Shown here: one piece after another, positions 1 through 46,111 of the stretch
Numbering within the stretch: the first letter of the stretch is position 1
Layout: every line of letters starts with the position of its first letter
Assembly: GCA_900318465.1 (NCBI GenBank)
Contig: ONKQ01000004.1
Location: 24,747 to 88,746, forward strand
Length of the DNA stretch: 64,000 bases
Direction: 5' to 3'
DNA from: an uncultured Bacteroidales bacterium
GTDB lineage: Bacteria > Bacteroidota > Bacteroidia > Bacteroidales > F082
The notes under the pieces: model-generated
Told to the model about the DNA's origin: nothing
Seen by the model: the letters and a program-made list of their open reading frames with translations, nothing else
The model's database searches: none
Program-made: the position numbers and the translations under genes

Positions 1-709
1 TGGCAAAAACCACCACGTAGGCCACCTGCCACAGCACCTTGCTTTCCATCTCGGCAAAGGGCAAGGTGAAGAAATGCCTCGCATTGAAGGGCAAGGCCAC
101 CAACATCGAAAACAGGAACATCCACTTCATGAAGGTGACCACGTTGTATTTCGAGATTAAGGGGCGGAAGATGCCAAGATACATGGCAAAGGTGAGGCCG
201 TTGGCCACGGCAAGCACAATGCCCATCGGCTTGGTTTCGGAAGCTCCGCCACCCAAACCCACCGAATTGAATATCAAGAACAAAACGCCCGCAAGACTCA
301 CCAAAACACCACCAATTTTCTTGAATGTGATAGGCTCCTTCAGGACAATGGCGGCCACAAACATAGTCATGATGGGCGTACAAGTGTTGGCAATGCTAAG
401 GTCGATGGAGGTCGTCATGGTGATGGCCTTCAGGAAACTCATCTGGGTCAGGAAGAGGCCGAGCATGGATGCCACGAAGATTTGCATCAAGTCATTCAGC
501 GGCACTTTTTCCTTGGGCATGAAAAGCGACAGCAGCCAAAACAAGAGGGTGGCTCCCGTCGCCCGCAGGCAAAACAAGTCCATGGGCGTCAACACGTTGG
601 CGTTGGAAATGTTCTTGCAACAAACGATGTTAAGCCCAAAGATGCAGTAGGCACCAAAACACGCGAGGTGTCCGACGAGGATGGAAGACTTATTCAATCC
701 AATAGACAT
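1..709 (-). CDS. EamA/DMT-family transporter, C-terminus beyond window
   Basis: An open frame of 236 codons starts with ATG at 709 and runs off the left edge without a stop. The protein begins MSIGLNKSSILVGHL and shows about seven hydrophobic segments. Segment ends such as VLKEPITFKKIGGVLVS are typical of the EamA repeat of drug/metabolite exporters, which usually has ten membrane helices and about 300 residues; roughly the last 60-70 residues are therefore missing here. The start lies 20 bp inside the end of the upstream nitroreductase gene, which suggests translational coupling. The substrate cannot be told. Confidence 0.85.
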   Translation of the reverse strand, partial: MSIGLNKSSILVGHLACFGAYCIFGLNIVCCKNISNANVLTPMDLFCLRATGATLLFWLLSLFMPKEKVPLNDLMQIFVASMLGLFLTQMSFLKAITMTTSIDLSIANTCTPIMTMFVAAIVLKEPITFKKIGGVLVSLAGVLFLIFNSVGLGGGASETKPMGIVLAVANGLTFAMYLGIFRPLISKYNVVTFMKWMFLFSMLVALPFNARHFFTLPFAEMESKVLWQVAYVVVFA

Positions 710-7286: not shown

Positions 7287-7447
7287 GACTTCGGGACGAG
7301 GGACGAGGGACTTCGGGACAAGGGACGAGGGACTTGGGACTTGGGACGAGGGACTTGGGGTATTTGTTTGACTCGTAGTCTCGCAGTCCCGCAGACTCGT
7401 GTCCAATTTGTTTGACTCGTAGTCCCGCAGTCCCGCAGACTTGTGTC
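7287..7447. repeat. Long array of 7-8 bp GGGACTTC/GTCCCGCA-type repeats
   Basis: Almost the whole gap between the divergent genes at 7245 and 7573 is built from near-tandem copies of GGGACGA, GGGACTT, then AGTCCCGC and GACTCGT variants. The arrays would be transcribed as the long 5' leader of the PNGase-like gene if the promoter at 7491 is used. Confidence 0.7.
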
Positions 7448-7490
7448 CATAATATGTAATTAAACATGCCCATCCGCGTAATTGAAAGGA

Positions 7491-21633: not shown

Positions 21634-22593
21634 TTATTGGATTAATTTGTTGTTCATAAAAACATATTCTACTGCATCTTCGTATTCCTTCAAAGCATTA
21701 ATCTTCTTAATTTTCCGCCAAACCACCTGCGGCTCCTCAAAACTGTTCATCAGATACGACCACAATTCCTTCATTCGTCCCAAGACCTTTGGACTGCCTC
21801 CGGCATGGCGTAGCCTATCCTCATAAAGGTCAACGATGTATGCGTATAGCCGTGCGATCCGTTCCGGCGCATTCCATGCGCCCCCTCGAATCTCCTCCGC
21901 CAAAAACGGATTGGCCAAAATCCCTCGTCCCAGCATGAATTGGTTCACCGACTGAACCTGCTCCCTAATGTGCCCAAAACTTTCCCTCGAAAAAATATCT
22001 CCATTATAAACTAACGGCGCATTAATATAAGGTATTAATGCTTTGAACCGCTCCACATCGGCCTCTCCTTTGTATAATTGCTTCCCAATGCGGGGATGGA
22101 TGATTAATTCGCTCAACGGAAATCGGTTGAAAATTGGGATGATGGCCTCAATTTCTTCAGGGCTGAAATAACCCAAACGGCATTTCACGCTGAATTTTAT
22201 GTCAATTTCCTCGAAAACTCTTTCAAACATCGCTTCCACCATGTCAGGGTAAGGCAGGAGGCCACAGCCGCGTTTCTTGTTGGCCACTCTTGGGAACGGG
22301 CAACCCATGTTGAGGTTGATTTCCTTGTAGCCCAACTGTTTGCATTGCTTGGTGAAACGCAAAATTTCCTCTGCATCAGTGCTGAGAATTTGGGGCGTGA
22401 GGGTCTCCACATCATTGAATTTCGGGTCTATTTCCTCGCCTTGCAGGTTCTTGGCATGGTCTTCTTTGTGAATGCCCGTAAAAAAAGGCGTGTAAAACTT
22501 GTCGATGCCGCCGAAGTGCCGCTTGAACACGTTGCGGAATGGTGCGTCGGTGATGCCTTGGAAAGGACCCAAAGAAAGCAGAATGTCGCTCAT
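21634..22593 (-). CDS. tRNA-dihydrouridine synthase family protein
   Basis: The 319-residue protein has the Dus hallmarks: LGPFQGITDAPFRNVF near the start, then EINLNMGCPFPRV with the catalytic Cys, FSVKCRLGY, LIIHPRIGKQLYKG, VYNGDIFS and FMLGRGILANPFL. It reduces uridine in tRNA using FMN and NADPH. Subtype is not clear. Length is close to the family norm. Its ATG overlaps the stop of lnt by 4 bp (ATGA). Confidence 0.92.
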   Translation of the reverse strand: MSDILLSLGPFQGITDAPFRNVFKRHFGGIDKFYTPFFTGIHKEDHAKNLQGEEIDPKFNDVETLTPQILSTDAEEILRFTKQCKQLGYKEINLNMGCPFPRVANKKRGCGLLPYPDMVEAMFERVFEEIDIKFSVKCRLGYFSPEEIEAIIPIFNRFPLSELIIHPRIGKQLYKGEADVERFKALIPYINAPLVYNGDIFSRESFGHIREQVQSVNQFMLGRGILANPFLAEEIRGGAWNAPERIARLYAYIVDLYEDRLRHAGGSPKVLGRMKELWSYLMNSFEEPQVVWRKIKKINALKEYEDAVEYVFMNNKLIQ

Positions 22594-24242
22594 TTCTTCT
22601 TTTTCTTGTTGGCCTTCTTGACCGGTTTTTCTCCAGCTTGGTTCCATCGGATGATGCTCATGGCCATCCAAGAAATGAGCAACACTAAAGTGAGATAGAC
22701 TGCAATGCGGCTCAAATAGTCACCATGTTTAGCATAAAAGGTGACTTTAGTGTTGGCCTTCAGGGTCTCACGGATGGCATCAGGCACCCAATAATGGGTT
22801 TGTTGCAGCACATCACCGCGTTGATTAATAAAGCCTGAACGTCCCGTATTGGCCGATCGAGCCACACAACGACGGTTTTCGATGGCTCTTAATTTGGAGA
22901 ACTCGAAGTGCTGGCGGTATCCTGGCGTGTCTCCCCACCAACCATCATTGGTGATGACAAAAAGCAGGTCGGCACCTTTCTTGCAGAAATTGCTGACATA
23001 TTCGCCGAAAGCCGACTCATAACAGATAGGCACACCGACGAGATGCTTACCAAATCTCATCGTATAAGCTTCTGGGTCAGTCTTCAAAGTGCCACGCGCA
23101 ATGCCCATGGTGATGCTATAGTTCTTCAAAAAGCCCATCCATTCCGGGATGGCTTCCACCGCTGGCGTGAGTTGCGACTTGTTGCGGTGCTGCATATTAA
23201 TGGTGTCGATGAGCAGGGCGGAGTTATGGCAATAATAGTAGCGGTCGCTGTTGCCGACTTGCCTTGCTGGAAAGTCGTCTTCCATACCTTTTGGCACCCA
23301 TTCGTATGTAGTGCCGCCTATAACAAAAGCCATCTGAGGATGTTTCTGGATGTAATCATGCAAAGTCCGCAAAGCCCGAACTTTATCGGTTTCATGCAGC
23401 CAAATCCCTTCCTGAATGGCCGACTCTGAACTGACCACAAAGCGCGTTTTCTCAGTGACCAAAGGCAACGAGAGTGCCAAATTGTTTTGGATGACTTGGT
23501 CATAGAAATGCGCATCAAACTGTTCATTCCACGGGTCGCAATTCTGCTGCACTACAATGACTTCCGTGTCGGTGCCTTGGTCTTCATAATGCCGGTAGAT
23601 GCTCTTGCCAATTAAAATCGGGAAGATAAGCACCATCGTCGAGGCCCCTATATTAATAAAGGTGTATTTTGCCGCTTTTGCCTTGGCAAACAGGATAACA
23701 TTGGTTATCAGTATGTTGACCAAAAGCACCCAAAGCGTACCGCCTGCCACGCCTGTCACCTCGTACCATTGTATCCAGCTATGGCAAGTCGAAAACACAT
23801 TGCCCAAGTTGAGCCAAGGCCATTTGACCGACCAATGGTAGGTAAGCAGCTCAAAGGCCATCCAATAAGGGATAAGGAAGAAGTTGCCCCAAGGTTTGTT
23901 GCACACTTTTTTCTTGGTTTGATGAAACACATTGAAAACAATGGTCATGAAAAGCGCATTCAGAATCCAAGCCAATGTTGCAGCAGGCGTGGCGTTCCAT
24001 ACCCACCACGTCGTTACCACGTTCCAAACGAAAAAAGATAGGAACGAAAGCCAAAACAACCTGCCCTTTTCGCCTTGCGCAATGCGATCCTCCAGCAAAA
24101 GCAAGGGAACAAAACCCAAGAATACTAATGGCGCCAAGCCCCAAGTGGGCCAAGCCGCCGACAGCAGTCCCCCGCTCAATAAAGCCAATAGTATTCGGAA
24201 GCCTTTTCCGTCCCGCGTCGCACGTTTATGATTCTTTGCCAT
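22590..24242 (-). CDS. lnt: Apolipoprotein N-acyltransferase
   Basis: The 550-residue protein has about six N-terminal membrane segments (LLALLSGGLLSAAWPTWGLA at the start), a nitrilase-like periplasmic domain and a final membrane helix with a Lys-rich tail. Catalytic triad positions can be read: Glu in VVSSESAIQEG, Lys in NKSQLTPAVEAIPEW and Cys in GVPICYESAFGEYVS. It N-acylates the terminal Cys of lipoproteins, which are numerous in this window. First gene of the lnt-dus-DIP1984 operon. Confidence 0.94.
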   Translation of the reverse strand: MAKNHKRATRDGKGFRILLALLSGGLLSAAWPTWGLAPLVFLGFVPLLLLEDRIAQGEKGRLFWLSFLSFFVWNVVTTWWVWNATPAATLAWILNALFMTIVFNVFHQTKKKVCNKPWGNFFLIPYWMAFELLTYHWSVKWPWLNLGNVFSTCHSWIQWYEVTGVAGGTLWVLLVNILITNVILFAKAKAAKYTFINIGASTMVLIFPILIGKSIYRHYEDQGTDTEVIVVQQNCDPWNEQFDAHFYDQVIQNNLALSLPLVTEKTRFVVSSESAIQEGIWLHETDKVRALRTLHDYIQKHPQMAFVIGGTTYEWVPKGMEDDFPARQVGNSDRYYYCHNSALLIDTINMQHRNKSQLTPAVEAIPEWMGFLKNYSITMGIARGTLKTDPEAYTMRFGKHLVGVPICYESAFGEYVSNFCKKGADLLFVITNDGWWGDTPGYRQHFEFSKLRAIENRRCVARSANTGRSGFINQRGDVLQQTHYWVPDAIRETLKANTKVTFYAKHGDYLSRIAVYLTLVLLISWMAMSIIRWNQAGEKPVKKANKKKKK

Positions 24243-24342: not shown

Positions 24343-24350
24343 TATTTTTG
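24343..24350 (+). promoter_or_regulatory. TATTTTTG -7 box for the peptide-modification-like operon
   Basis: An exact consensus match 17 bp upstream of ATG 24368, giving a leader of about 10 nt for the HPr-kinase-like gene. Confidence 0.65.
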
Positions 24351-24367
24351 CGCAAAATTTTTGTCAG

Positions 24368-25240
24368 ATGAAAAAGACTTACAAAGTAGCTGGACATAAG
24401 TTCAATGTTATAATGCCCGATAGACATTTGGCATGGCATGAGTTGCAGAATTACGAACCCTTTTTGGTCGAAGAGTCAGATGAATGCATTTTTACGGCCA
24501 GAATGCTGGATTTCCTGCCTGATACAACAACTAAGCAATTGGTGACGGTAAGTTGCCCAGGAGACGATTTCTCGAGAATTGAACTGTATAAATGGAACGA
24601 CAAGTGGATGATGAGTGTAGCCCCTGTAAAAGAGGCCCCTGCTGCTGTACATTTATTTGTCAACAAGAATTTTACGGATGTAGGCTTTTTTATCTCCGAC
24701 AGTTTGAAATTCTCTCTTAACACAGTTTTGATGCTGATGTTTGCCCTTTCCACAGCGTGTAAGAATACACTACTAATGCATGCTTCTGTGACAATGCATA
24801 ATGGCAAAGGCTATGTCTTCCTTGGCAAGAGCGGCACAGGCAAAAGCACGCACAGCCAACTATGGATTAATAATATAGAGAATTGCGAACTGCTCAACGA
24901 CGACAACCCAATATTGCGAGTTGAAGACAACGGCGAGGTTCGTGTCTATGGTTCGCCTTGGAGTGGCAAGACTCCTTGCTACCGCAACCTTGACGTCCCG
25001 GTAGGTGCCATTGTCGACTTACATCAGGCCAAAAAGAACGTGATTAAGCGACAGTCATTACCCAACGCATACGCTTCGATTTATGTTTCGTTCTCAGGTT
25101 ATCGATTCATCAAAGAGCAAGCCGACGGATTCCACGACACCAACGTAAAGATTGTCAGTACAGTACCTTGCTATTCTCTCGACTGCTTGCCCAATGCCGA
25201 TGCTGCCTTCCTTTGTCATCAAACCGTAACGCAACAATGA
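24368..25240 (+). CDS. HPr-kinase-like P-loop protein
   Basis: The 290-residue protein has the HPrK-type P-loop FLGKSGTGKSTHSQLW (about 153-168), a TLLMHASV segment just before it, an acidic LLNDDNPIL stretch and GSPWSGKTPCYRN. The N-terminal ~140 residues have no clear match. HPrK-like kinases of this short type occur in natural-product peptide loci; in paeninodin-type lasso peptides one phosphorylates the C-terminal Ser of the precursor. The real sugar-regulation HPr kinase is excluded by the different N-terminus and context. It overlaps the next gene by 4 bp (ATGA). Confidence 0.8.
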   Translation: MKKTYKVAGHKFNVIMPDRHLAWHELQNYEPFLVEESDECIFTARMLDFLPDTTTKQLVTVSCPGDDFSRIELYKWNDKWMMSVAPVKEAPAAVHLFVNKNFTDVGFFISDSLKFSLNTVLMLMFALSTACKNTLLMHASVTMHNGKGYVFLGKSGTGKSTHSQLWINNIENCELLNDDNPILRVEDNGEVRVYGSPWSGKTPCYRNLDVPVGAIVDLHQAKKNVIKRQSLPNAYASIYVSFSGYRFIKEQADGFHDTNVKIVSTVPCYSLDCLPNADAAFLCHQTVTQQ

Positions 25241-25671
25241 AAAAGGCAATACTTGACGAACAAACCCCTGCTGAATTGAAAAAATGGATTGAAGAGGGTT
25301 GCACCGTTATCATCAATCCAAAAGGCATCAGTATGCTACCGTTCATCCACGAGGGGAAAGACAAAGTCCTCTTAAGTATACCTAACACCCTTAAAACGGG
25401 CGACATTGTTTTGATAAGCCTCAACGGACGGTATCTCATGCACCGCATTTATGCCATTGATGGTGACAATCTCACTCTGATGGGCGACGGCAACCTTAAA
25501 GGCAACGAGTACTGCAAAAAGTCGGATGTGGTTGGTCTTGTATCTGAAATCATCGACGAGAAAGGCAACCACCGAAAACCTGGAAAAGCATGGCTGTGGC
25601 GACACACCGTAGGCCTTCGCAAATACCAATTGAAAGCCTATAGAAAGTGCAAAAAACTATTGAAATCATAA
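25237..25671 (+). CDS. S24/S26 (SipW-like) peptidase without membrane anchor
   Basis: The 144-residue protein has the Ser motif NPKGISMLPFI (catalytic Ser about 33) and the His-containing YLMHRIYAIDGDNLTLMGDGN, the Ser-His arrangement of SipW/S26B signal peptidases rather than the Ser-Lys type. No membrane helix is visible at either end and the C-terminus is basic, so it probably works in the cytoplasm. It might remove a leader peptide. The start overlaps the preceding stop; the PqqD-like gene follows 20 bp later. Confidence 0.8.
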   Translation: MKKAILDEQTPAELKKWIEEGCTVIINPKGISMLPFIHEGKDKVLLSIPNTLKTGDIVLISLNGRYLMHRIYAIDGDNLTLMGDGNLKGNEYCKKSDVVGLVSEIIDEKGNHRKPGKAWLWRHTVGLRKYQLKAYRKCKKLLKS

Positions 25672-25691
25672 TATCCTAAATACTTACACTC

Positions 25692-25961
25692 ATGAAAACA
25701 AAAAAAGGCTTTACGCTTCGTTCCTTGGGCAATGAACATCTTCTTGTGGCTGAAAGTGTGGAAATGACTAACTTCAACCGCATGATTTCGATGAACGAAA
25801 GTGCTGCCATGCTCTGGAAGGAGATTGATGGCAAAGACTTCGATGCCGAAACTTTGACCAATCTCCTTATGGAAAACTACGACATTAATCGCGATGTGGC
25901 TGAGCACGATGTGACAGCTTTGCTAAAGTCATGGAAAGAAGCGGGTATCATTGAGGATTAA
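25692..25961 (+). CDS. PqqD-like peptide-binding protein
   Basis: The 89-residue protein has the PqqD fold pattern: an N-terminal strand region, MNESAAMLWKEIDGKDFDAETL in the middle and a helical end DVTALLKSWKEAGIIED. PqqD domains (RREs) bind leader peptides of ribosomally made peptides and present them to modifying enzymes. Here it sits between a peptidase and a nucleotidyltransferase and upstream of a tiny peptide gene, its likely partner. Confidence 0.85.
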   Translation: MKTKKGFTLRSLGNEHLLVAESVEMTNFNRMISMNESAAMLWKEIDGKDFDAETLTNLLMENYDINRDVAEHDVTALLKSWKEAGIIED

Positions 25962-25964
25962 ACC

Positions 25965-27095
25965 ATGACCACCACCGAACAGCAATATTTTGCCCTCATG
26001 CGTGCCGCTCTATGGCAGCAACCCGTTGAATTTAATGGGGCTCCCGACTGGAAAGGCATCATGGGCATCGCACGTCATCATACCACTGAGGTATTAGTGG
26101 CCGATGTGGCCTCACGTCTTTCTGGAGATAACGCACCCTCTGATGCTTTGCTTCGTGAGATGAAAGCCTCCATGCGCGCGAATCTTATTAATCAATTGGA
26201 GCTGAAACAAATTCTCACCACAGCTATCACAGCCTTGAAAAACAAAGGCATCGAGCCGGTATTGCTTAAAGGTTTCGGTTTGGCTTTACTTTATCCCAAT
26301 CCCAACTTGCGGCAGTTTGGCGACATCGACCTTTTTGTGGGTTTGCAACAGTTCCACGAAGCCTGCAAAGTGTTGCGCACACTTCCTGGAGGCTACAATT
26401 GGGGCGACGAGGTAGATTCAGGACGGCACTACAATATTGAGTTCGGGCATCATCCTATGGAAGTGCATCGCGTAAGTGCCGACTTCGTTAATTCAAAAGA
26501 CTTGGCCGTCTATGCTAATATCGAACAAGACGGTTTGGTCAACAATAGGCAAACCTTCGATTTCGAGGGATTCCCTCTACCTGTGCCTTCCAATGAGTTC
26601 ACGGTATTCTTCACTTTCCTTCATGCATGGGAACATTTTACGTCCTCAGGCGTAGGTTGGCGACAAATCTCTGATGTGGCAATGGCTTTGCATACCTATT
26701 TGGGTACATCTGCGGATTCGCAAACAGCATCTTTCGACCTCAACAAACTACACACATGGATCACAGCCATGCATCTTATGAAACCCTGGCAAACCTTTGG
26801 GTGGCTGATGGTTGCCTATCTTGGTCTGCCCGAAGCGGAAATGCCATTCTACAATTCCTCATGCCGCCGAAAGGCGCAGAAGCTCTATGCCAGAGTGATG
26901 GCTGAGGGGAATTTCCGCCGTCCAAACCGCTACAAACACAACAAACCCAAAGGGCGCATTGCCAAGAAAGCCCATTCTTTTATTGGCATTTTCGTTGACT
27001 TTTTCCAATTGGCTAAAGTATTTCCAGCACAAGCATTCCGACAACTGAGTACCGCATTAAAAACAAGTTTTTCGAAAAATTTTCAAAAAAAATGA
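25965..27095 (+). CDS. Nucleotidyltransferase family protein (PF14907-like)
   Basis: The 376-residue protein has the nucleotidyltransferase core KNKGIEPVLLKGFGLALLY, then FGDIDLFVG (about 116-124) with the metal-binding DxD, and EFGHHPMEVHR downstream. Such proteins accompany lasso-peptide and related clusters, where they are proposed tailoring enzymes; the reaction here is unknown. The start follows the PqqD-like stop by 3 bp. The basic C-terminal third (from about 300) is not assigned. Confidence 0.82.
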   Translation: MTTTEQQYFALMRAALWQQPVEFNGAPDWKGIMGIARHHTTEVLVADVASRLSGDNAPSDALLREMKASMRANLINQLELKQILTTAITALKNKGIEPVLLKGFGLALLYPNPNLRQFGDIDLFVGLQQFHEACKVLRTLPGGYNWGDEVDSGRHYNIEFGHHPMEVHRVSADFVNSKDLAVYANIEQDGLVNNRQTFDFEGFPLPVPSNEFTVFFTFLHAWEHFTSSGVGWRQISDVAMALHTYLGTSADSQTASFDLNKLHTWITAMHLMKPWQTFGWLMVAYLGLPEAEMPFYNSSCRRKAQKLYARVMAEGNFRRPNRYKHNKPKGRIAKKAHSFIGIFVDFFQLAKVFPAQAFRQLSTALKTSFSKNFQKK

Positions 27096-27125
27096 TTTTT
27101 TTTCGCAGCGTATGAATTAATTGTC

Positions 27126-27133
27126 TATTTTTG
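27126..27133 (+). promoter_or_regulatory. TATTTTTG -7 box for the small-peptide gene
   Basis: An exact consensus match 85 bp upstream of the small ATG at 27219, so the peptide and the following lipoprotein can be made in excess of the enzymes, as usual for precursor peptides. Confidence 0.6.
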
Positions 27134-27218
27134 CAGCGAAAAAGACGTGAATAGGAAACACGACAACACAACTAACTAAATAACAAACTTAAAGTCTAAC
27201 AATTAAAACTTAAACAAA

Positions 27219-27335
27219 ATGAAGACAATGAACAACAACTACGAAGCCCCTATGGCTGAAATGATTGAGCTGACTGCACAAGCTGTCTTAACCGCATCCA
27301 ATGACTGGGGTATTACTCCCGTTATTAGCGAGTAA
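27219..27335 (+). CDS. Candidate precursor peptide, 38 residues
   Basis: ATG 27219 begins a 38-codon frame ending at TAA 27333. The N-terminal part, MKTMNNNYEAPMAEMIEL, resembles short Bacteroidota leader-like peptides in which YEAP/EMIEL is common; the C-terminal half is TAQAVLTASNDWGITPVISE, with Thr and Ser residues, one Trp and a penultimate Ser. It has its own promoter and a purine/A-rich start region. Its position just after kinase, PqqD-like, peptidase and nucleotidyltransferase genes makes it a likely substrate. A penultimate Ser would suit an HPrK-like kinase, but that is inference. Confidence 0.65.
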   Translation: MKTMNNNYEAPMAEMIELTAQAVLTASNDWGITPVISE

Positions 27336-27388
27336 AAAAAGCTAACAACCAGTAACAGAAAACAAAACTGAACAAAAAAAAAAGCGAA

Positions 27389-28462
27389 ATGAAAGTAATT
27401 AGATTAGCATGTATGGTATGTGCGTTAGGAGCAATGTTCCTGACGGTTTCCTCTTGCAAAAAGCAAAATGACCAAACCACATTCAATCTCGGTATCAGCG
27501 AATGGCAAAGCGAAGACGATGAAAGAATGTACATCGATTTCCAAACCCATAAACCAAAATGGAATGGTTTGGATGAAGTAATGGTCTACAACCTCGATTT
27601 TGAGGATGGAGAAAATTCGGTGTTTGATGTGTACAGAACTAATGCGGCTGCCGAAGGCCAAGATAGAGCTTCCTTCGTCGGATCAGTTGGTCCGGTGAAA
27701 GACGGTTATTTCACTTTCTATCCTGCCCAGATTACTGGCAGCTACGATGGTGATGCTATGAATGTAGACAACAGAGAATCATTCCACGTCGATCCTGTTC
27801 AACATCTCACAATCTTCAAAAAGGGTAATAATTGGCTGAACACCATCGATCCTCTTGGATTTGCTGTTGCCCACAATCCTACAAACTTGACAAGCTTCGA
27901 TTTCAGGCATATCTTTGGTATGCTTAGATTAGCTTTCCGTGGAGAGGATAATTTGATAATTGATCATGTCGAACTTATTGACAATCGCCACAATTTGTCA
28001 GGTGATGTCTCTCTCAAGTTGCCCAGAGTGGACACCGAAAAGCTTACCAATTTAATCAATTATCTTAAGAATAGCCAGCTGGAAGATTTTGCCAATCTTT
28101 ATCAAAGCTACGCCATCGAAGATCTTGGATTCGAAGTTACTCAAAATCAGTACTTGGGCAGAATGCTTACGCTCGACTGCTCATCTCATCCTGAACAATG
28201 CACGTTCCAAGATGGTTTCGCCAGAGATATGTATCTTGGCATTCGTCCTGGTGCATTGACTGATGGTTTCAAATTGAAAGTTTATTTCCAGGGTGACAGA
28301 GCTGTATACGTTAAGCAATTCCTTGCGCCAAATTATGCCAAATGCTCCAAGCCTGGTGTGATTAGAACTATTAGTCCTACTTTCTTCTCCGAAGAGTTGT
28401 ATGATGGTTCAGAAAATGCTCCTGGTGTATTTGGAAGTTGGGCTGAAGTTGAAGCTATGTAA
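27389..28462 (+). CDS. Lipoprotein of unknown function, possibly fimbrillin-like
   Basis: The 357-residue protein has a lipoprotein signal ending VSSC (Cys23). The body is beta-rich; the HNPTNLTSFDFRHIFGMLRL region resembles the middle of Mfa/fimbrillin-type proteins, where a first and second sandwich domain meet. It follows the small peptide gene by 53 bp and ends at a strong terminator, so both probably share one transcript. A role as anchor or receptor for the peptide is conceivable but unsupported by sequence alone. Confidence 0.6.
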   Translation: MKVIRLACMVCALGAMFLTVSSCKKQNDQTTFNLGISEWQSEDDERMYIDFQTHKPKWNGLDEVMVYNLDFEDGENSVFDVYRTNAAAEGQDRASFVGSVGPVKDGYFTFYPAQITGSYDGDAMNVDNRESFHVDPVQHLTIFKKGNNWLNTIDPLGFAVAHNPTNLTSFDFRHIFGMLRLAFRGEDNLIIDHVELIDNRHNLSGDVSLKLPRVDTEKLTNLINYLKNSQLEDFANLYQSYAIEDLGFEVTQNQYLGRMLTLDCSSHPEQCTFQDGFARDMYLGIRPGALTDGFKLKVYFQGDRAVYVKQFLAPNYAKCSKPGVIRTISPTFFSEELYDGSENAPGVFGSWAEVEAM

Positions 28463-28481
28463 TCAACTAAGTTTCCAAAAC

Positions 28482-28513
28482 AAAAAGCGCTTTCCTTTCG
28501 GGAGGCGCTTTTT
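28482..28513 (+). terminator. Terminator after the lipoprotein gene
   Basis: Nine-base arms AAAAAGCGC/GCGCTTTTT with a further paired core and a T run. The A/T symmetry allows function in both directions. Confidence 0.88.
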
Positions 28514-28762: not shown

Positions 28763-28845
28763 AGACGCGAGACTACGAGACTGCGAGACTATTAGACATT
28801 GGCTTGTCTCGAAGTCCCGAAGTCCCGTGTCCCAAAGTCAAATAA
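28763..28845. repeat. GAGACTAC/GTCCCGAA 7-8 bp repeat array
   Basis: Near-tandem GCGAGACT variants turn into GAAGTCCC variants half way, so the two halves are partly inverted. Same family as at 2528, 7287 and 12439. Confidence 0.6.
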
Positions 28846-28882: not shown

Positions 28883-30166
28883 TTAAAGTATATTCAACCG
28901 GTTGGCGTCTTGCTTGACGAAGATGGCCAACATGACTGTAAAGGCCAACATACTTGAACCACCATAGCTCAGGAAAGGCAACGGAATGCCGATGACGGGC
29001 ATCAGGCCAATGGTCATGCCGATATTAATGGCCACATGAACAAAGAAGATGCCTGCAATGCCGTAGCCATACACACGGCTGAAAGTTGAACGCTGCCGCT
29101 CGGCAAGCATGATGATACGCAAAAGCAAAGCCACATAAAGAATCATCACAGCCGCAGTGCCAAGAAAACCGCCCTCCTCTCCTATCGTACAGAAAATGAA
29201 GTCGGTATGCTGCTCAGGCACAAAGTCGTATTTGGTTTGCGTGCCTTGCAGAAAACCTTTTCCTGAAAAACCTCCCGAACCGATGGCTATCTTCGACTGA
29301 TAGACATTGTAGCCCACACCTTTAGGGTCGTCGAGCTGACCAAGCAGCACCAAGACACGGTTCTGCTGATGTTCCTGCAACACATGATTGAAAGCATAAT
29401 CCACCGAGAACACCATGCCAAAACCCATCCCAAACACGAGAATGACAGGAACGATGGCATCGCGTTTTTTGTTGAGGAATAAGTAAAGCAAAGTGAGCAG
29501 CAACAGCGAGCCAAGGATGAAATACATCACCTTCTGCGACCACACGAGGGTGAAGATGAACAGCAAAGCCGCCACCACGCCGATAACCATCAGCCAGCCC
29601 GCACCCGGCATTCCCTCGCGGTATAGCACAAAGATGAACGATACGAATACGATGGCCGACCCTGTATCGTTTTGCAACAATACAAGTGCCATGGGAACCA
29701 GAATAAGTGCGAAACTCACAATCTGCTCCTTGCGTTTCCGCAGATCCACATCGAGGCGACCAAGGTAACCTGCGAGGGCCAAGGCCGTACCCATTTTGGC
29801 AAACTCAGAAGGCTGAAACTTGACGGGACCAAACTCAATCCACGACATGGCACCTTTGGTAGCCTTGCCGTACACCAATACCGCCACCAACGAAGCCAGG
29901 AAAAAGAAATAAATCCAGAGCGAAAAAGCATTGAAAAACTTCGCATCGATGAGCAAAATAATAAAACCGGCAAGCAAGGCAATGCCAATCCAAATAAGCT
30001 GTTTGCCGTATTCCATAGAAAAGTCGAAGATGCTGGGGTGCAACTCGTTGTACTTGGCAGAAAATATGCTAAACCAACCTATGAGCACCAGAGTAAAATA
30101 AATCAGCAACGTCACCCAGTCGAGACGGCCTATGATTCGGTTTCTATTGTCGTTGTCGTCGATCAT
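28883..30166 (-). CDS. rodA: Rod shape-determining protein RodA (SEDS glycosyltransferase)
   Basis: The 427-residue protein has about ten membrane segments and the SEDS signatures WIEFGPVKFQPSEFAKMGTALALA and LPFLSYGGSSMLAF near the end. RodA polymerises lipid II glycan strands for lateral wall growth with PBP2. Length is normal. Its ATG overlaps the mrdA stop by 4 bp. Confidence 0.95.
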   Translation of the reverse strand: MIDDNDNRNRIIGRLDWVTLLIYFTLVLIGWFSIFSAKYNELHPSIFDFSMEYGKQLIWIGIALLAGFIILLIDAKFFNAFSLWIYFFFLASLVAVLVYGKATKGAMSWIEFGPVKFQPSEFAKMGTALALAGYLGRLDVDLRKRKEQIVSFALILVPMALVLLQNDTGSAIVFVSFIFVLYREGMPGAGWLMVIGVVAALLFIFTLVWSQKVMYFILGSLLLLTLLYLFLNKKRDAIVPVILVFGMGFGMVFSVDYAFNHVLQEHQQNRVLVLLGQLDDPKGVGYNVYQSKIAIGSGGFSGKGFLQGTQTKYDFVPEQHTDFIFCTIGEEGGFLGTAAVMILYVALLLRIIMLAERQRSTFSRVYGYGIAGIFFVHVAINIGMTIGLMPVIGIPLPFLSYGGSSMLAFTVMLAIFVKQDANRLNIL

Positions 30167-32650: not shown

Positions 32651-33454
32651 ATGAAGAACAATTTCAATAAAATCGCCATTCTCATCATCATTTTCTCTGT
32701 CGGTTTAGCCTCGTGCGTACCGCAGAAAAAGATGCTTTATCTGAAAGAAGCCCAGATGGCAGCCGAGAACATCTCGAAGGAATACGTCAACGACCGCAGC
32801 GTCACCTACCGTCTTCAACCTGGAGACAATCTTTACATTCGTGCCATCAATACTATTGACGAGCGTGGTGCTGCTGCCATTAATGGTGAAACCTCAATGC
32901 GCACCACACAGTTAAGCAGTGATGGTGGAATCTACCTCCAGTCACATACTGTAGCTGAAGATGGTTGCATTGAATTACCTCTTGTGGGTCGTGTGGAAGT
33001 GCGTAATCTCACCGTCGAGGAAGCTAAAGAAAGACTACAGACAGAGCTCAACAAGTATGTCAACCAAACCATGCTCATCGTCAAGCTGTCGAACTTCAAC
33101 TTGACTGTACTTGGCGAAGTGACCCGTCCTGGTATGTATAAAGTCTATCAATCACAAATCAATCTTTTTGAGGCCATCTCTATGGCAGGCAACATGACCA
33201 GTTTTGCCAAAAACGACGAGGTTAGAATCATCCGCCAAACTGACAATGGCTCCGAAATCGTAACTGTCAATATGGGTCAGGCCGATATCCTCGCATCGCC
33301 GTATTACTACCTGAAACCCAACGACATCATTTATGTGGAGCCGCTTAAAATCAAACAATGGGGCTTCACTACATTCCCGTATTCCACTGTATTGTCGGTC
33401 GTCACTCTCGCCCTTACTATGCTTAGCCTTTACTTAAACAACAGAAACAAGTAA
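32651..33454 (+). CDS. Outer-membrane polysaccharide export protein (Wza-like lipoprotein)
   Basis: The 267-residue protein has a lipoprotein signal ending LASC (Cys22), a Poly_export domain (YRLQPGDNLYIRAINTID, then GCIELPLVGRVEVRNLTVEEA) and an SLBB segment (LTVLGEVTRPGMYKVYQ). A C-terminal hydrophobic helix replaces the amphipathic one of Wza. It should form the outer-membrane channel partner of the tyrosine kinase encoded 12 bp downstream. Confidence 0.92.
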   Translation: MKNNFNKIAILIIIFSVGLASCVPQKKMLYLKEAQMAAENISKEYVNDRSVTYRLQPGDNLYIRAINTIDERGAAAINGETSMRTTQLSSDGGIYLQSHTVAEDGCIELPLVGRVEVRNLTVEEAKERLQTELNKYVNQTMLIVKLSNFNLTVLGEVTRPGMYKVYQSQINLFEAISMAGNMTSFAKNDEVRIIRQTDNGSEIVTVNMGQADILASPYYYLKPNDIIYVEPLKIKQWGFTTFPYSTVLSVVTLALTMLSLYLNNRNK

Positions 33455-33466
33455 ACACAACTCACC

Positions 33467-35947
33467 ATGGCAAACGAAAAAACACGCATCCCACAACAAA
33501 CCAACGAAGAGCAAAGTGTTGATATTAAACAATTGGTCTTCATAGCTTTGGATCATTGGTATTTATTCGTCATTTTTGTAATGGCAGCTTTAGCCTGTGG
33601 TTTCATTATCAACCGTTATTCGACCAAGGTCTACCAAACAACGGGTACTGTCCTCATCAATGAAGGAGGTAAAAATTCATACGATCCAACGGCCATTATG
33701 ACCTCTATGAACTTCGGTAGTTTCCAGAACATCGACAATGAGATAGCCATTCTCCAATCGTATACCCTCCGCGAGCGTGTCATCAAAAAGATGGGCATTG
33801 AAGTGACTTACCTTGAAAAAGGCCGCATTGCTTCCACTGAATTATACAAATGCGCACCTTTCCATGTAGAGTTTGAGCGCAGTGTGCCTCAGGCCGTAGG
33901 ATTATCGTATGAGATAAGCTTCCTCGATAATGGCAACATCCAACTCCATGCCATAGGCGAAGGCCTCTACAAATATGACTACATCCTCTGTCAATCAGCA
34001 GGGAGTGACCCCTTCGCTAAAATCGACACTATCGGAGAATACAAACAAGGTGAATGGATTGACAATGGTTACAATCGCATCCGTATTACACAAATCGAGA
34101 ATTTCAATCCTGAAATGATCAGGGGAAAAAGATTGGTGTTTTGGCTTAACAGCTATCCGTCACTTGTCTCGCAGTTAAGTAATTTCTCCGTAAGTCCTAT
34201 CTCCAAACAGGCTTCGGTGGCCTCTGTAATGGTGAAAGGCAACGACAAACGTAAAATTGTCGAGTTTGCCAATCTGCTTATGAACGAATATGTGAATCGT
34301 GGTTTGGAGAAAAAGAATCTTGTGTCGGAAAACACTATCGAGTTTATCGACAACGAGTTAACTGGCATCCAAGAATCATTAGGCCAGGCTGAGACCGAAC
34401 TGAAAGAATTCCGTCAGCAAAACGACTTGATGAACCTTGACTTACAAGCTAACCAAGTTTACACCAACCTGCAAGCTTTGGAAAAGGAGAGAGCCGAGAA
34501 GTCTGTCAACCTGAAGATTTACCAGCGAATGCAGGATTATATCCAAGTACAAATTAACGACCCTGAAAATCTGGCATCTCCCAGCACAATGGGTATTAAT
34601 GACCCGTTGCTTAACCAGTTAGCTCGCGACCTTGTCACTCTGTCACAAACCAAGGCCACTCAACTGCTTACCCAAACCGAGCAACACCCTCAAATTCAAA
34701 AGCTTAACGAACAAATCATCACTACGAAAAAGGCCTTATTGGAAACCATCAACAATCTCGTCGACAACGCTCAAATGAGCCTTAATGAGATTTATGGCCG
34801 CATCGCCCGACTTGAAAATGAGTCGAAAAAACTGCCAGGCAAACAACAACAACTTATCAATTACCAACGTAATTACCAATTCACTGATGATACATACAAG
34901 TATTTGATGCAGCGTCGTGCCGAGGCCCAGATTTTGCGCGCCTCCAACACACCCGACAACGAAATTCTCGATGAAGCACGACTTGAGCGCACCTATCTTA
35001 TCTCTCCTCGCACTTCGATGAATTATCTCATCGCCATTATTATCGGTCTGCTCATCCCGTCCGTGTTTCTCTTCTTGAAGAACTTCTTCAACAACACTAT
35101 TACCGACCGCAAGGACGTGGAAAAGCTGACCCGTTTCCCCATTGTTGGAATGGTGGCACAAAACAATTCGAAAAATCCTCTCCTTGTCATCAACAACCCC
35201 AAATCACCAGTATCGGAGGCTTTCCGCTCCATACGTACCAATGTCGAATACCTCTCCCAAAGCAAGACACCTTGCACCGTCCTTGTCACAGGCGATACCC
35301 AAAGCATTGGCAAGACCTTCAACAGTATCAACATTGCTTCGATTTATGCTCTTTACGGCAAGAAGACAATTTTGCTCGGTTTCGACATGAGAAAACCCAA
35401 GCTCTTCCAAGAATTTGACCTTAACAATAATATTGGCCTGAGCAGTTACCTCTCCAATAAGGAATCTCTTGACAGCATCATACAAACCTCAAACAAGATA
35501 CCCACTCTCGATATTATCACCTCCGGTCCCATCCCGCCCAACCCAGCTGAGCTGATTGCTTCTGACAAGTGCAACGAATTGTTCACCGAGTTGAAGAAAC
35601 GTTATGACTATATTGTCATCGACACGCCGCCCATCGCCCTTGTCACCGACGCTTTGTTGCTCATGCGCTATTCCGATGCCAATCTGTTCGTTGTGCGTCA
35701 AGGCGTGACTAACAAAAACGCTTTCGGCAGCATTATCAAAGACCTTGAGGAACGCGATATGCAGTTTGCCATTGTCCTCAACGGCCTTAAAGTCGAAAAG
35801 GGTTATGGCTATCGCTACGGTGGCGAGAAGTATGGCTATGGTTACGGCTACGGCTATGGTTATGGCTACGGAAGTGACTACTACGGCGAGATTGAAGATG
35901 ACGACAAGAAAAAGAAACATCGCAAAAACCATAAAAGCAACAAGTAA
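33467..35947 (+). CDS. Polysaccharide co-polymerase with tyrosine autokinase (Wzc-like)
   Basis: The 826-residue protein has membrane helices near 30-50 and 515-540 flanking a large coiled-coil Wzz domain, then a BY-kinase domain: Walker A in VTGDTQSIGKTFNSIN, Walker A' in ILLGFDMRKPK and Walker B in YDYIVIDTPPIALV. The P-loop lacks the usual PGEGKS form but keeps GKT. The C-terminus (about 781-808) is a Tyr-Gly alternating stretch with many Tyr, the expected autophosphorylation tail. It controls chain length and export of a surface polysaccharide with the neighbouring channel. Confidence 0.93.
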   Translation: MANEKTRIPQQTNEEQSVDIKQLVFIALDHWYLFVIFVMAALACGFIINRYSTKVYQTTGTVLINEGGKNSYDPTAIMTSMNFGSFQNIDNEIAILQSYTLRERVIKKMGIEVTYLEKGRIASTELYKCAPFHVEFERSVPQAVGLSYEISFLDNGNIQLHAIGEGLYKYDYILCQSAGSDPFAKIDTIGEYKQGEWIDNGYNRIRITQIENFNPEMIRGKRLVFWLNSYPSLVSQLSNFSVSPISKQASVASVMVKGNDKRKIVEFANLLMNEYVNRGLEKKNLVSENTIEFIDNELTGIQESLGQAETELKEFRQQNDLMNLDLQANQVYTNLQALEKERAEKSVNLKIYQRMQDYIQVQINDPENLASPSTMGINDPLLNQLARDLVTLSQTKATQLLTQTEQHPQIQKLNEQIITTKKALLETINNLVDNAQMSLNEIYGRIARLENESKKLPGKQQQLINYQRNYQFTDDTYKYLMQRRAEAQILRASNTPDNEILDEARLERTYLISPRTSMNYLIAIIIGLLIPSVFLFLKNFFNNTITDRKDVEKLTRFPIVGMVAQNNSKNPLLVINNPKSPVSEAFRSIRTNVEYLSQSKTPCTVLVTGDTQSIGKTFNSINIASIYALYGKKTILLGFDMRKPKLFQEFDLNNNIGLSSYLSNKESLDSIIQTSNKIPTLDIITSGPIPPNPAELIASDKCNELFTELKKRYDYIVIDTPPIALVTDALLLMRYSDANLFVVRQGVTNKNAFGSIIKDLEERDMQFAIVLNGLKVEKGYGYRYGGEKYGYGYGYGYGYGYGSDYYGEIEDDDKKKKHRKNHKSNK

Positions 35948-44563: not shown

Positions 44564-46111
44564 ATGACTGACAACGAAAGATCTGGCAAGCGTCCGCGCA
44601 CCAGAAGAGAGGAACCGGAAGAGTTCCAACAGAGAAGGTCCTTCAAGTTTTATCACCGCGACGGTGACGAAGAGGGACAAGAAAGAGAGTTTGGCGACGA
44701 GCCGAGAGGTGAACGCCGCCGCTTCAGCGACCGTGGCGACCGCAAGTTTGGCGACCGCCGCTTCCATGACGACGACAGACCGCGTCGCCGTTTTAATGAC
44801 GATGATGAACGTCCAAGACGCAGATTTGATGATGACGAGCGTCCAAGACGTAGATTTGATGATGACGAGCGTCCGAGACGTAGATTCAATGACGACGACA
44901 GACCGAGAGGCGAGCGTCGTTTCCATGACGACGACAGACCGAGACGCAGATTTGACGACGATGAGCGTCCACGCCGCAGATTCAACGATGACGACAAACC
45001 GAGAGAACGTCGTTTCCATGACGACGACCGCCCACGCCGCAGATTTGACGACGATGAGCGTCCACGCCGCAGATTCAACGATGACGACAAACCAAGAGAG
45101 CGTCGTTTCCGTGACGACGACCGCCCACGCCGCAGATTTGACGATGATGAGCGTCCACGCCGCAGATTCAACGATGACGACAAACCGAGAGAGCGTCGTT
45201 TCCGTGACGACGACCGTCCGCGCCGCAGGTTTGACGACGATGAGCGTCCACGCCGCCGTTTCGACGACGAAAGACCACGTGGCGACCGCAAGTTTGGCGA
45301 CCGTCCGCGCCGCAATTTCGATGATGACCAAGAGCAACGCCATGGTCGCAAGGGCTATGTCCGCGAAAAGAATCCAGAGTACGACCGCCCGAAAGCAACT
45401 GGCGAAATCCGCCTGAACAAATATTTGGCCGACTGTGGTATCTGCTCGCGCCGCGAGGCAGACGACCTCATCAAAGCCGGCTGTGTGTCTGTCAACGGCG
45501 AGGTCATCACTACAATGGGATACAAAGTGAAGACGGATGACAAAGTGGTTTATGGCGGACAGACCCTCAACCGCGAGAAGCTCCGTTACATCCTGCTCAA
45601 CAAGCCCAAAGGCTACATCACCACGTCGGACGACCCGTATGAGCGCGACACTGTGATGGAATTGGTGAAAGACGCCTGCCCCGAGCGCATCTTCCCTGTC
45701 GGTCGCTTAGACAAAGGCACCACAGGCCTGCTGCTCTTCACCAACGACGGCGACCTGACCAAGAAACTCACCCACCCAAGCAGCGAGGTGCCGAAGCTTT
45801 ACCACGTCACCTTAAACAAGCCTTTGACCAAGAACGATATGCTACGCATCGCCGAAGGCATTGAGCTTGACGACGGCCCTATTGCCGCCGACAGCATTGC
45901 CTACGACCAAGACGACGACAGCAAGACAAGCATCGGCATCGAACTCCATTCAGGCCGCAACCGCATTGTGCGCCGCATATTCGAACACCTTGGTTATGAA
46001 GTTGTTAAGCTTGACCGCGTAATGTTCGCCGGTTTGGATAAATATCGCCTGCCCCGTGGCGAGTGGCGTTTCCTCACCGATCTTGAGGTGATGAACCTGA
46101 AGCAACTTTGA
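44564..46111 (+). CDS. RsuA/RluB-type pseudouridine synthase with Arg/Asp repeat extension
   Basis: The 515-residue protein has a catalytic C-terminal half of normal size: an S4 domain (IRLNKYLADCGICSRREADD, about 280-345) and the synthase core with VGRLDKGTTGLLLFTNDGDL carrying the catalytic Asp, then GRNRIVRRIFEHLGYEV. It isomerises a uridine in rRNA (16S or 23S not decided). The first 270 residues are a disordered extension of repeated DDDRPRRRF and DDDERPRRRF units, probably an RNA-binding tail, built from near-identical DNA repeats of about 30 bp. Confidence 0.9.
   Translation: MTDNERSGKRPRTRREEPEEFQQRRSFKFYHRDGDEEGQEREFGDEPRGERRRFSDRGDRKFGDRRFHDDDRPRRRFNDDDERPRRRFDDDERPRRRFDDDERPRRRFNDDDRPRGERRFHDDDRPRRRFDDDERPRRRFNDDDKPRERRFHDDDRPRRRFDDDERPRRRFNDDDKPRERRFRDDDRPRRRFDDDERPRRRFNDDDKPRERRFRDDDRPRRRFDDDERPRRRFDDERPRGDRKFGDRPRRNFDDDQEQRHGRKGYVREKNPEYDRPKATGEIRLNKYLADCGICSRREADDLIKAGCVSVNGEVITTMGYKVKTDDKVVYGGQTLNREKLRYILLNKPKGYITTSDDPYERDTVMELVKDACPERIFPVGRLDKGTTGLLLFTNDGDLTKKLTHPSSEVPKLYHVTLNKPLTKNDMLRIAEGIELDDGPIAADSIAYDQDDDSKTSIGIELHSGRNRIVRRIFEHLGYEVVKLDRVMFAGLDKYRLPRGEWRFLTDLEVMNLKQL

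Follow-up and report, generated by a model that had tools for sequence, protein, structure and literature searches.

A probable Bacteroidales version of the LPP-type peptide phosphorylation system, with precursor genes and lipoprotein partners dispersed around the genome

The locus described here raises the question of what a tightly packed set of peptide-modifying enzymes does for its bacterium when no cyclase is found among them. It lies in a window of 64,000 nucleotides (the whole stretch of DNA that was analysed) from an uncultured Bacteroidales bacterium, which is a gut-type bacterium. On the + strand, between 24368 and 28462, genes for a kinase, an S26-type peptidase, a PqqD protein, a nucleotidyltransferase, a 38-aa peptide and a lipoprotein follow each other closely, all parts being present as the earlier note had listed them. 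This gene order was retained in 17 of the 19 distinct related loci, the duplicates L029 (=L020) and L037 (=L026) being counted once; among the loci read, L023 stops before the peptide and L040 is without a peptide at the cassette. In May 2026, Popov et al. reported that the same enzyme types in Paenibacillus phosphorylate and trim a linear peptide without a cyclase; the accessible part of that paper calls the system, LPP (lppA/K/B/S/N/D), restricted to Bacillota and leaves the role of the family open (PMC13381572). Based on gene content, order, conservation, motif positions and co-occurrence, we consider it rather probable that the window locus is the Bacteroidales version of an LPP-type RiPP system, in which one enzyme set serves further precursors in trans. 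Its enzymes probably phosphorylate short peptides before trimming them. The earlier note had inferred a compact, minimal system that phosphorylates and/or nucleotidylates a linear peptide and then trims it; because the enzyme set matches the cyclase-free LPP set, this is partly supported, but "minimal" and "compact" were not borne out because of the constant lipoprotein, the peptide's own promoter-like box and the peptide genes found elsewhere.

The first gene (24368..25240, +) encodes a 290-aa LppK-like kinase with the P-loop GKSGTGKST at residue 153, in which G153, S155, G156, G158 and K159, together with N177-D179, are invariant in 15/15 aligned sequences. Its AF2 model (pLDDT 92.4) matched PEPCK (E 3.5e-7) and HprK/P 1knx (E 1.9e-5) in Foldseek, and no Pfam or NCBIfam model passed its cut-off; the HprK/PEPCK type is thus assigned from the predicted fold, because the sequence models fail. 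The HPr-kinase-like protein of the earlier note holds for P-loop and fold, but not at the level of sequence models. Overlapping the kinase gene by ATGA is the gene of a 144-aa S24/S26 peptidase of the SipW/SEC11 type (LppS-like; 25237..25671, +; PF00717 above cut-off), whose Ser32, His69 and Asp84 are invariant in 11/11 sequences and make up a Ser-His-Asp triad. The best solved relative in a profile search was SEC11A (E 3.5e-4), and no membrane helix was seen on inspection by eye. The 89-aa PqqD-type protein (25692..25961, +; PF05402, E 5.7e-16) is a discrete, LppB-like RRE with Asn35 and Asp73 invariant in 12/12; its profile matched the lasso B1 proteins TfuB1 (E 3.4e-6), TbiB1 (0.0012) and PbaB1 (0.038), and LppB (9x8z) was not among these three matches at E<=0.1. 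The fourth enzyme (25965..27095, +; 376 aa; PF14907, E 1.9e-35) is an NTP_transf_5 nucleotidyltransferase of the LppN/PsmN-like kind, with the GDxD motif (Asp120, Asp122) invariant in 9/9. The best-scoring ABC match to an LppD-like exporter in the window genome was 29% identical, and when 36 same-genus genomes were searched with the LppD-like ABC gene of genome G012 (locus L090), close relatives (E<=1e-40) were confined to G012 itself, G019 and G014, and the window genome had none.

By homology, the PqqD-like RRE would bind the YxxP leader of the precursor, and the HprK-fold kinase would place at least one phosphate on a Ser/Thr 18-20 residues past the leader Tyr, which in the window peptide would be Ser27. 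Presented by the RRE, the peptide would be cut by the S26 peptidase just before the Ser, near the short hydrophobic run VLT, and the PF14907 enzyme may decorate the phosphate with a group derived from a nucleotide or a sugar. An alternative is that the principal modification comes from the PF14907 enzyme, which would put a nucleotide or sugar on the peptide with phosphorylation as a mere intermediate, as its intact GDxD motif would allow and as PsmN, which puts a hexose onto the phosphorylated Ser of pseudomycoidin, would suggest (PMC9266682, in the part available). But such an enzyme lay within 6 kb of the kinase in 22 of the 45 loci read and was not found in the other 23, and deletion of lppN brought no change according to the accessible text on LPP (PMC13381572), so we regard this alternative as unlikely.

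The kinase was matched in 59/393 Bacteroidales genomes, and carriers of LPP-like machinery include Prevotella sp. oral taxon 299, which is human-derived, and Phocaeicola massiliensis. Loci were read in 40 of the 54 kinase-matched genomes that were new at the order level, and L040 and L042 among the 45 loci come from same-genus genomes outside the 59. Both S26 and PqqD genes were located within 6 kb of the kinase in 38/45 loci, and an MsbA-like exporter in 32/45. LPP-like cassettes therefore appear to be common in Bacteroidales, which looks new: no description of such sets in Bacteroidota was found in the open-licence literature, a scope outside which preprints lie. In the accessible text of a Bacteroidales RiPP survey (PMC10352776), "PqqD" occurs once, in a reference, and "HPr" does not occur; the available part of a rumen lasso paper (PMC7533575) mentions Bacteroidetes a single time, as a group little explored for lasso peptides.

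The putative substrate is the 38-aa peptide (27219..27335, +), with Y8xxP11 in its leader and Ser27 (Tyr+19) as the predicted phosphosite. This frame is no chance ORF, being present in 17 related loci with a leader pN/pS of 0.18 (calculated over codons 2-17 for 15 of the 18 genes, the three gapped genes excluded). The 18 aligned peptides have the common leader MKKMNKxYEAPKAEVIE, and the sequence behind it varies. The earlier note had made its reading depend on small peptides near homologous gene sets and on codon-level conservation of the frame; small leader peptides do accompany the homologous sets, and with the pN/pS value both objections fail. YxxP was present in 35/35 peptides compared, and a Ser/Thr was found at Tyr+18..20 in 13/18, 17/17 and 12/12 peptides of three sets (shuffled means 5.7, 7.4 and 5.3), five of the 18 cassette peptides being without one. 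The set of 17 came from 20 regions minus the near copies L079 and L088 and minus L094, and the 12 order-level peptides were chosen by eye from a list of small YxxP frames, the others being dropped as unlike the leader. In other clusters, the peptide was positioned between PqqD and kinase in 7/8 loci. A Butyrivibrio peptide carries YVKP, but it has neither Ser nor Thr at Tyr+18..20, and the profile did not match it.

Peptide genes distant from the cassette carry this leader as well, two in the window genome and up to 15 matches in another genome, which looks new. With a profile built from the cassette peptides alone, 17 remote copies were still detected at E<=1e-3, and each of them belonged to a genome with a cassette. 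Within the genus, peptide matches at E<=1e-3 occurred in 14/14 genomes whose kinase match was full-length and in 0/22 others, one of which (G025) has a divergent kinase-S26-PqqD set. Across the order, 44/59 kinase-positive and 6/334 kinase-negative genomes had peptide matches (Fisher 1e-38, a P value that overstates independence because genomes share ancestry), which leaves 15 kinase-positive genomes without a peptide match and six peptide-positive genomes without a kinase match. After exclusion of 14 genomes contributing profile rows and two with long-frame matches only, the association was 28/45 versus 6/334. From this distribution, one enzyme set may serve, in trans, precursors encoded elsewhere in the genome, and many remote precursor genes would be paired with a lipoprotein gene in a unit of two. 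Cluster searches would overlook these likely substrates, because the remote peptide genes are far from the enzymes; these observations also hint at the class of function of one group of small Bacteroidales peptide genes.

The 357-aa lipoprotein (27389..28462, +), with a signal peptide ending SSC-K, is the constant partner in the clade of the window. Its AF2 model (pLDDT 83.6, the window protein being the one folded) had as best Foldseek matches the Bacteroides fimbrial/cell-adhesion proteins BF1858 (3t2l, E 4.5e-8), BF1861 (3sy6) and BACOVA_04980 (3ufi), with E up to 1.9e-6. The Foldseek probability for BF1858 and BF1861 was 1.00 at a low TM-score, and against all three the TM-score was just 0.36-0.40 by query length and the identity 10-13%, without a Pfam match. 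The predicted fold is of the fimbrial adhesin type, and the fimbrillin-type features are the FimA/Mfa-type fold at low TM-score and the SSC-K lipobox. A lipoprotein started directly after the remote peptide in 18/19 and 11/11 cases in two families and in 1/9 in a third (f111), and this pairing appears to be new. The count of 19 is 20 regions minus L094 (G054), which is followed by a 1310-aa secreted PKD protein; for the order-level count, 20 regions were fetched, covering 8/15 peptides of G090, 3/6 of G361, 8/13 of G146 and 1/5 of G328, and the peptides of G120 and G254, with no lipoprotein listed after them, stand outside it. Most of ten partner proteins searched with Pfam had no match above cut-off, and beta-helix or InlB-like repeats occur in some partners, which are large proteins. 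The pairing in two families is a concrete clue to function. We tentatively suggest that one LPP-type cassette might modify a genome-wide family of phospho-peptides, each acting on or carried by its own co-made fimbrillin-type surface lipoprotein, in up to about fifteen pairs; if true, this would be a RiPP system dedicated to the surface of the bacterium. A bacteriocin/immunity function, in which the lipoprotein would shield the producer from a modified peptide that poisons its neighbours, would suit the scattered pairs and the fast variation of peptide C-termini and lipoproteins, but the adhesin fold, the large repeat-bearing partners, the f111 peptides without a lipoprotein and the lack of an exporter in the window cassette make it quite improbable.

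Pattern matches place the promoter-like box TATTTTTG, which we take to be the Bacteroidota -7 box, upstream of the enzyme operon (24343..24350, +) and of the peptide-lipoprotein unit (27126..27133, +), with a third TA..TTTG match at 27910 within the lipoprotein gene. TA..TTTG was present in the 250 bp upstream of 18/18 cassette peptides and in none of the 14 scannable peptide-lipoprotein gaps (43-68 bp). An intrinsic-terminator-like stem-loop (28482..28513, +) has a 14-pair stem with two G-T pairs and a T-rich tail. Terminator and sigma-70 scans overall gave no more sites than shuffled sequence. No RNA families or tRNAs were found in the window. The short frame comes first in its two-gene unit and might be an attenuation-type leader ORF regulating the lipoprotein gene, with the target of the enzymes elsewhere; amino-acid-level conservation of the leader, the YxxP in all 35 peptides, the peptide-kinase association across genomes, the peptides between PqqD and kinase, and f111 (8/9 without a detected lipoprotein) argue against this, and we hold it to be very unlikely. 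A paeninodin-type lasso locus whose cyclase and leader protease were lost or displaced would explain the shared kinase, RRE and nucleotidyltransferase, but it is highly improbable: a serine peptidase occupies the place of the leader protease, the RRE has Asn35/Asp73 instead of the Gly/Gln of PbaB1, and the identical layout in 17 loci rules against decay of a lasso locus. As the earlier note had remarked, cyclase and transglutaminase-like protease are missing: the operon encodes no asparagine-synthase-like macrolactam synthetase, and Transglut_core3 (PF13471) matched neither the window genome nor the other 14 listed same-genus genomes and was above cut-off in 3/58 genomes, never at a cassette; a lasso peptide locus was rejected on this search.

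Among known systems, the prochlorosins, in which one synthetase serves many remote precursors, have one enzyme set and many dispersed leader peptides in common with the preferred LPP-type reading, although chemistry and enzymes differ. The lasso peptides paeninodin and pseudomycoidin share the kinase, the PqqD-type B1 protein, the nucleotidyltransferase and phosphorylation of a precursor Ser (PMC9266682, available part), whereas the window operon is without a macrolactam synthetase, its genome without a Transglut_core3 B2 match and its RRE without WxxP-type recognition residues. Closest is LPP, which, as far as the accessible text goes (PMC13381572), shares the HprK-like kinase, the discrete RRE, the SipW-like Ser-His-Asp peptidase, the NTP transferase, the absence of a cyclase, the YxxP leader and a Ser about 18-20 residues past the Tyr; S3 of LppA, by the numbering of the paper, is phosphorylated at Tyr+18. 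LppB carries N33/D70, the pair favouring Tyr leaders, where PbaB1 has G42/Q79, and Asn35/Asp73 of the window RRE align with N33/D70 via the weak PbaB1 alignment (E 0.038), not via LppB itself. Compared with the LPP leader YxxPxVLxHQxIxFETxxS, leaders of the window type have YxxP and, in most peptides, a Ser/Thr at the matching distance, without VLxHQxIxFET. Bacteroidales, in Bacteroidota, belong to another phylum than the Bacillota hosts of LPP, and the machinery so far called Bacillota-restricted would be widespread among them; in contrast to LPP, the window cassette has no exporter, its clade keeps a constant lipoprotein partner, and precursors are also scattered round the genome.

The cassette at window 24368-28462 is composed of six genes in one direction, in the order HprK/PEPCK-fold kinase, S26 peptidase, PqqD-type RRE protein, NTP_transf_5 nucleotidyltransferase (NTP5), 38-residue peptide and lipoprotein, followed by a terminator-like stem; the earlier note had described this compact locus correctly. 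Its Pfam-assigned neighbours are lnt on the left (22590-24242, minus strand) and rodA on the right (28883-30166, minus strand). The window is part of contig C60, in a genome of 3.67 Mb. The six-gene order is common to 17 of the 19 distinct related cassette loci; the other two are L023, truncated at a contig end, and L040, which is differently ordered and without the peptide. The lnt gene adjoins the cassette in 18/19 loci (the exception being L040), and the cassette has therefore been vertically kept in place within the window's clade. The named relatives are assemblies of uncultured Bacteroidales or Bacteroidia; four bear RUG codes, which we take to mean rumen. About 4 kb past the cassette, a Poly_export/SLBB polysaccharide export protein and a Wzz/AAA_31 protein are encoded (32651-35947, plus strand); rodA and the export gene were absent from the fetched 3' flank of the relatives' loci. 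Tandem runs of the GGGACGAGGGACTT / AGTCCCG type occupy 7287-7449, and a run resembling them by eye lies just past the cassette terminator (about 28770-28842). Elsewhere in the window, a 93-bp unit is repeated 4.7 times with 89% match (44829-45267) in the front portion of an S4/pseudouridine-synthase gene (frame 44564-46111, plus strand).

Among 18 aligned cassette peptides, two of which (L032 and L034) were missed by BLAST and picked out by eye from the listing, the leader is almost constant, with M1, K2, N5, Y8, A10, P11, A13 and E14 invariant, and the second half is variable. Over leader codons 2-17 of 15 genes pS was 0.60, close to saturation, and pN was 0.11. In the accessible text on linear polyphosphorylated peptides (LPP; Popov et al. 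2026, PMC13381572), the phosphosite is Tyr+18 in the paper's numbering, counted here from the Tyr of the YxxP leader motif. Ser or Thr occurs at Tyr+18..20 in 13/18 cassette peptides (absent in the other five), 17/17 remote peptides, encoded away from the cassette, and 12/12 order-level peptides selected by eye, exceeding composition shuffles in all three sets. Ser27 is thus the predicted phosphosite of the window peptide, and the short hydrophobic run immediately upstream of it (VLT in the window; VLM, VLC or LIM in others) is a plausible cleavage site.

The kinase model (pLDDT 92.4) matched PEPCK best in the PDB (E 3.5e-7) and HPr kinase/phosphatase 1knx at 1.9e-5, two proteins that share a fold. 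Ser32, His69 and Asp84 of the peptidase are conserved in 11/11 relatives, the top match of its profile is SEC11A, of the Ser-His type, and no membrane helix was seen by eye. The PqqD profile matched the lasso B1 proteins TfuB1, TbiB1 and, weakly, PbaB1 (E 0.038); LppB, the LPP RRE protein, was not among the matches at E<=0.1. By our reading of that weak PbaB1 alignment, aided by the paper's numbering of PbaB1, Asn35 and Asp73, both invariant, sit on G42/Q79, which the accessible text equates with LppB N33/D70 (PMC13381572). In the nucleotidyltransferase the GDxD motif is intact in 9/9, and no solved relative was found at E<=1.

A -7-type box stands ahead of the window kinase and an identical one ahead of the peptide, so the peptide-lipoprotein pair may be a unit of its own. 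In the cassettes of relatives, TA..TTTG was found <=250 bp upstream of the peptide in 18/18 and in 0/14 testable peptide-lipoprotein gaps (43-68 bp). Upstream of remote peptides it was found in 13/19 from the window's genus, 1/11 from family f56 and 1/9 from family f111. By a single automatic lipobox test within 160 bp after the peptide, a lipoprotein start follows 16/18 cassette peptides (by BLAST, homologues of the window lipoprotein accompany the remaining two) and 18/19 remote peptides of the window's genus; the figures were 11/11 tested in f56 versus 1/9 in f111. Applied to 336 large frames of these loci, the test was positive for 43. The f111 genomes (L264-L269, L274) carry many unpaired peptides, several with tails like RNSLWGDDE; these are a different peptide class sharing the leader logic. 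The window lipoprotein, the sole partner folded, gave a model resembling Bacteroides fimbrial/cell-adhesion proteins at low TM-score. Repeats of the beta-helix or InlB-like kind scored above cut-off in two of the ten partners scanned; matches to Lcl_C and Fib_succ_major fell below it.

Precursors are also scattered outside the cassettes. When a profile was built from the 18 cassette peptides alone, it gave 17 extra matches at E<=1e-3, confined to 8 cassette-bearing genomes. A wider, 35-peptide profile gave 46 matches at E<=1e-3 among 60 genomes; cassettes account for 13 of these, and the other 33 are spread over 9 genomes, with two in the window's own. Within the genus, this profile was positive in 14/14 genomes with a full-length kinase match versus 0/22 others (including G025, which has a divergent kinase set), an association that is partly circular because profile rows derive from cassette genomes. 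In G012 (L090:4927-8050, minus strand), a second NTP5 gene and an exporter like LppD of LPP loci adjoin a remote peptide with its lipoprotein; relatives of both genes are adjacent to each other in G019 (C48:3136-5831).

At the order level, the kinase profile matched 59/393 genomes (E<=1e-15). Of the 45 loci read (40 new ones plus L040-L044), 43 have S26 no more than 6 kb from the kinase; for PqqD the count is 39, for an ABC exporter 32 and for NTP5 22. Kinase, S26 and PqqD occur together in 38/45, and the LPP core is therefore common in Bacteroidales. In L044, L198, L199, L200 and L202, S26 and ABC exporter profiles both match a single reading frame, and the two may be fused. A 31-row peptide profile was positive in 50/393 genomes at E<=0.01: 44/59 kinase-positive versus 6/334 kinase-negative (G158, G198, G271, G326, G328, G335). 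Excluding 14 profile-row donors and 2 genomes with only long-frame matches left 28/45 versus 6/334; the P values, 1e-38 and 6e-25, are too small because genomes share ancestry. Genomes positive for both belong to many families, and matches per genome numbered 15 in G090 and 13 in G146, some weak. A YxxP peptide adjoins the kinase in eight loci (L201, L204-L207, L210, L211, L214), in seven of them as PqqD-peptide-kinase, and lies directly upstream of the kinase in L041. Phocaeicola massiliensis TSDC17.2-1.1 carries the order PqqD-NTP5-ABC-kinase-S26, and a YEAP peptide (E 7e-9) lies about 4 kb off. Prevotella sp. oral taxon 299 F0039 has kinase-S26-PqqD and a remote YLAP peptide (E 0.0024); about 44 bp past this peptide comes a frame with a lipobox, just 64 codons long. 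Butyrivibrio fibrisolvens D1 (Bacillota) encodes a kinase, a 57-residue peptide, PqqD and an S24/S26 peptidase adjoining capsule genes; its peptide has YVKP, without profile match or Ser/Thr at Tyr+18..20.

The earlier note had proposed a minimal system that phosphorylates and/or nucleotidylates a linear peptide and then trims it, which was right in kind; the published counterpart, LPP, it did not name. As the accessible text of Popov et al. (PMC13381572) has it, LPP loci encode a SpI-type peptidase, an RRE, an HprK-like kinase, an NTP transferase and an MsbA-like exporter, and are said to be near capsule genes. The kinase phosphorylates core Ser3 (1-4 phosphates detected), the peptidase depends on the RRE, and removing the NTP transferase gene changed nothing in the authors' host. 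That text states LPPs to be restricted to Bacillota and most, not all, peptidase homologues to be Bacillota, and the stem "bacteroid" has 0 occurrences in its main text. Unlike LPP loci, the window cassette is without an exporter, and its type of leader differs downstream of YxxP; the window system is classed as a variant of the LPP type and, given these two differences, not as a proven member. Its phylum, its scattered precursors and its pairing with lipoproteins are what the published family does not cover.
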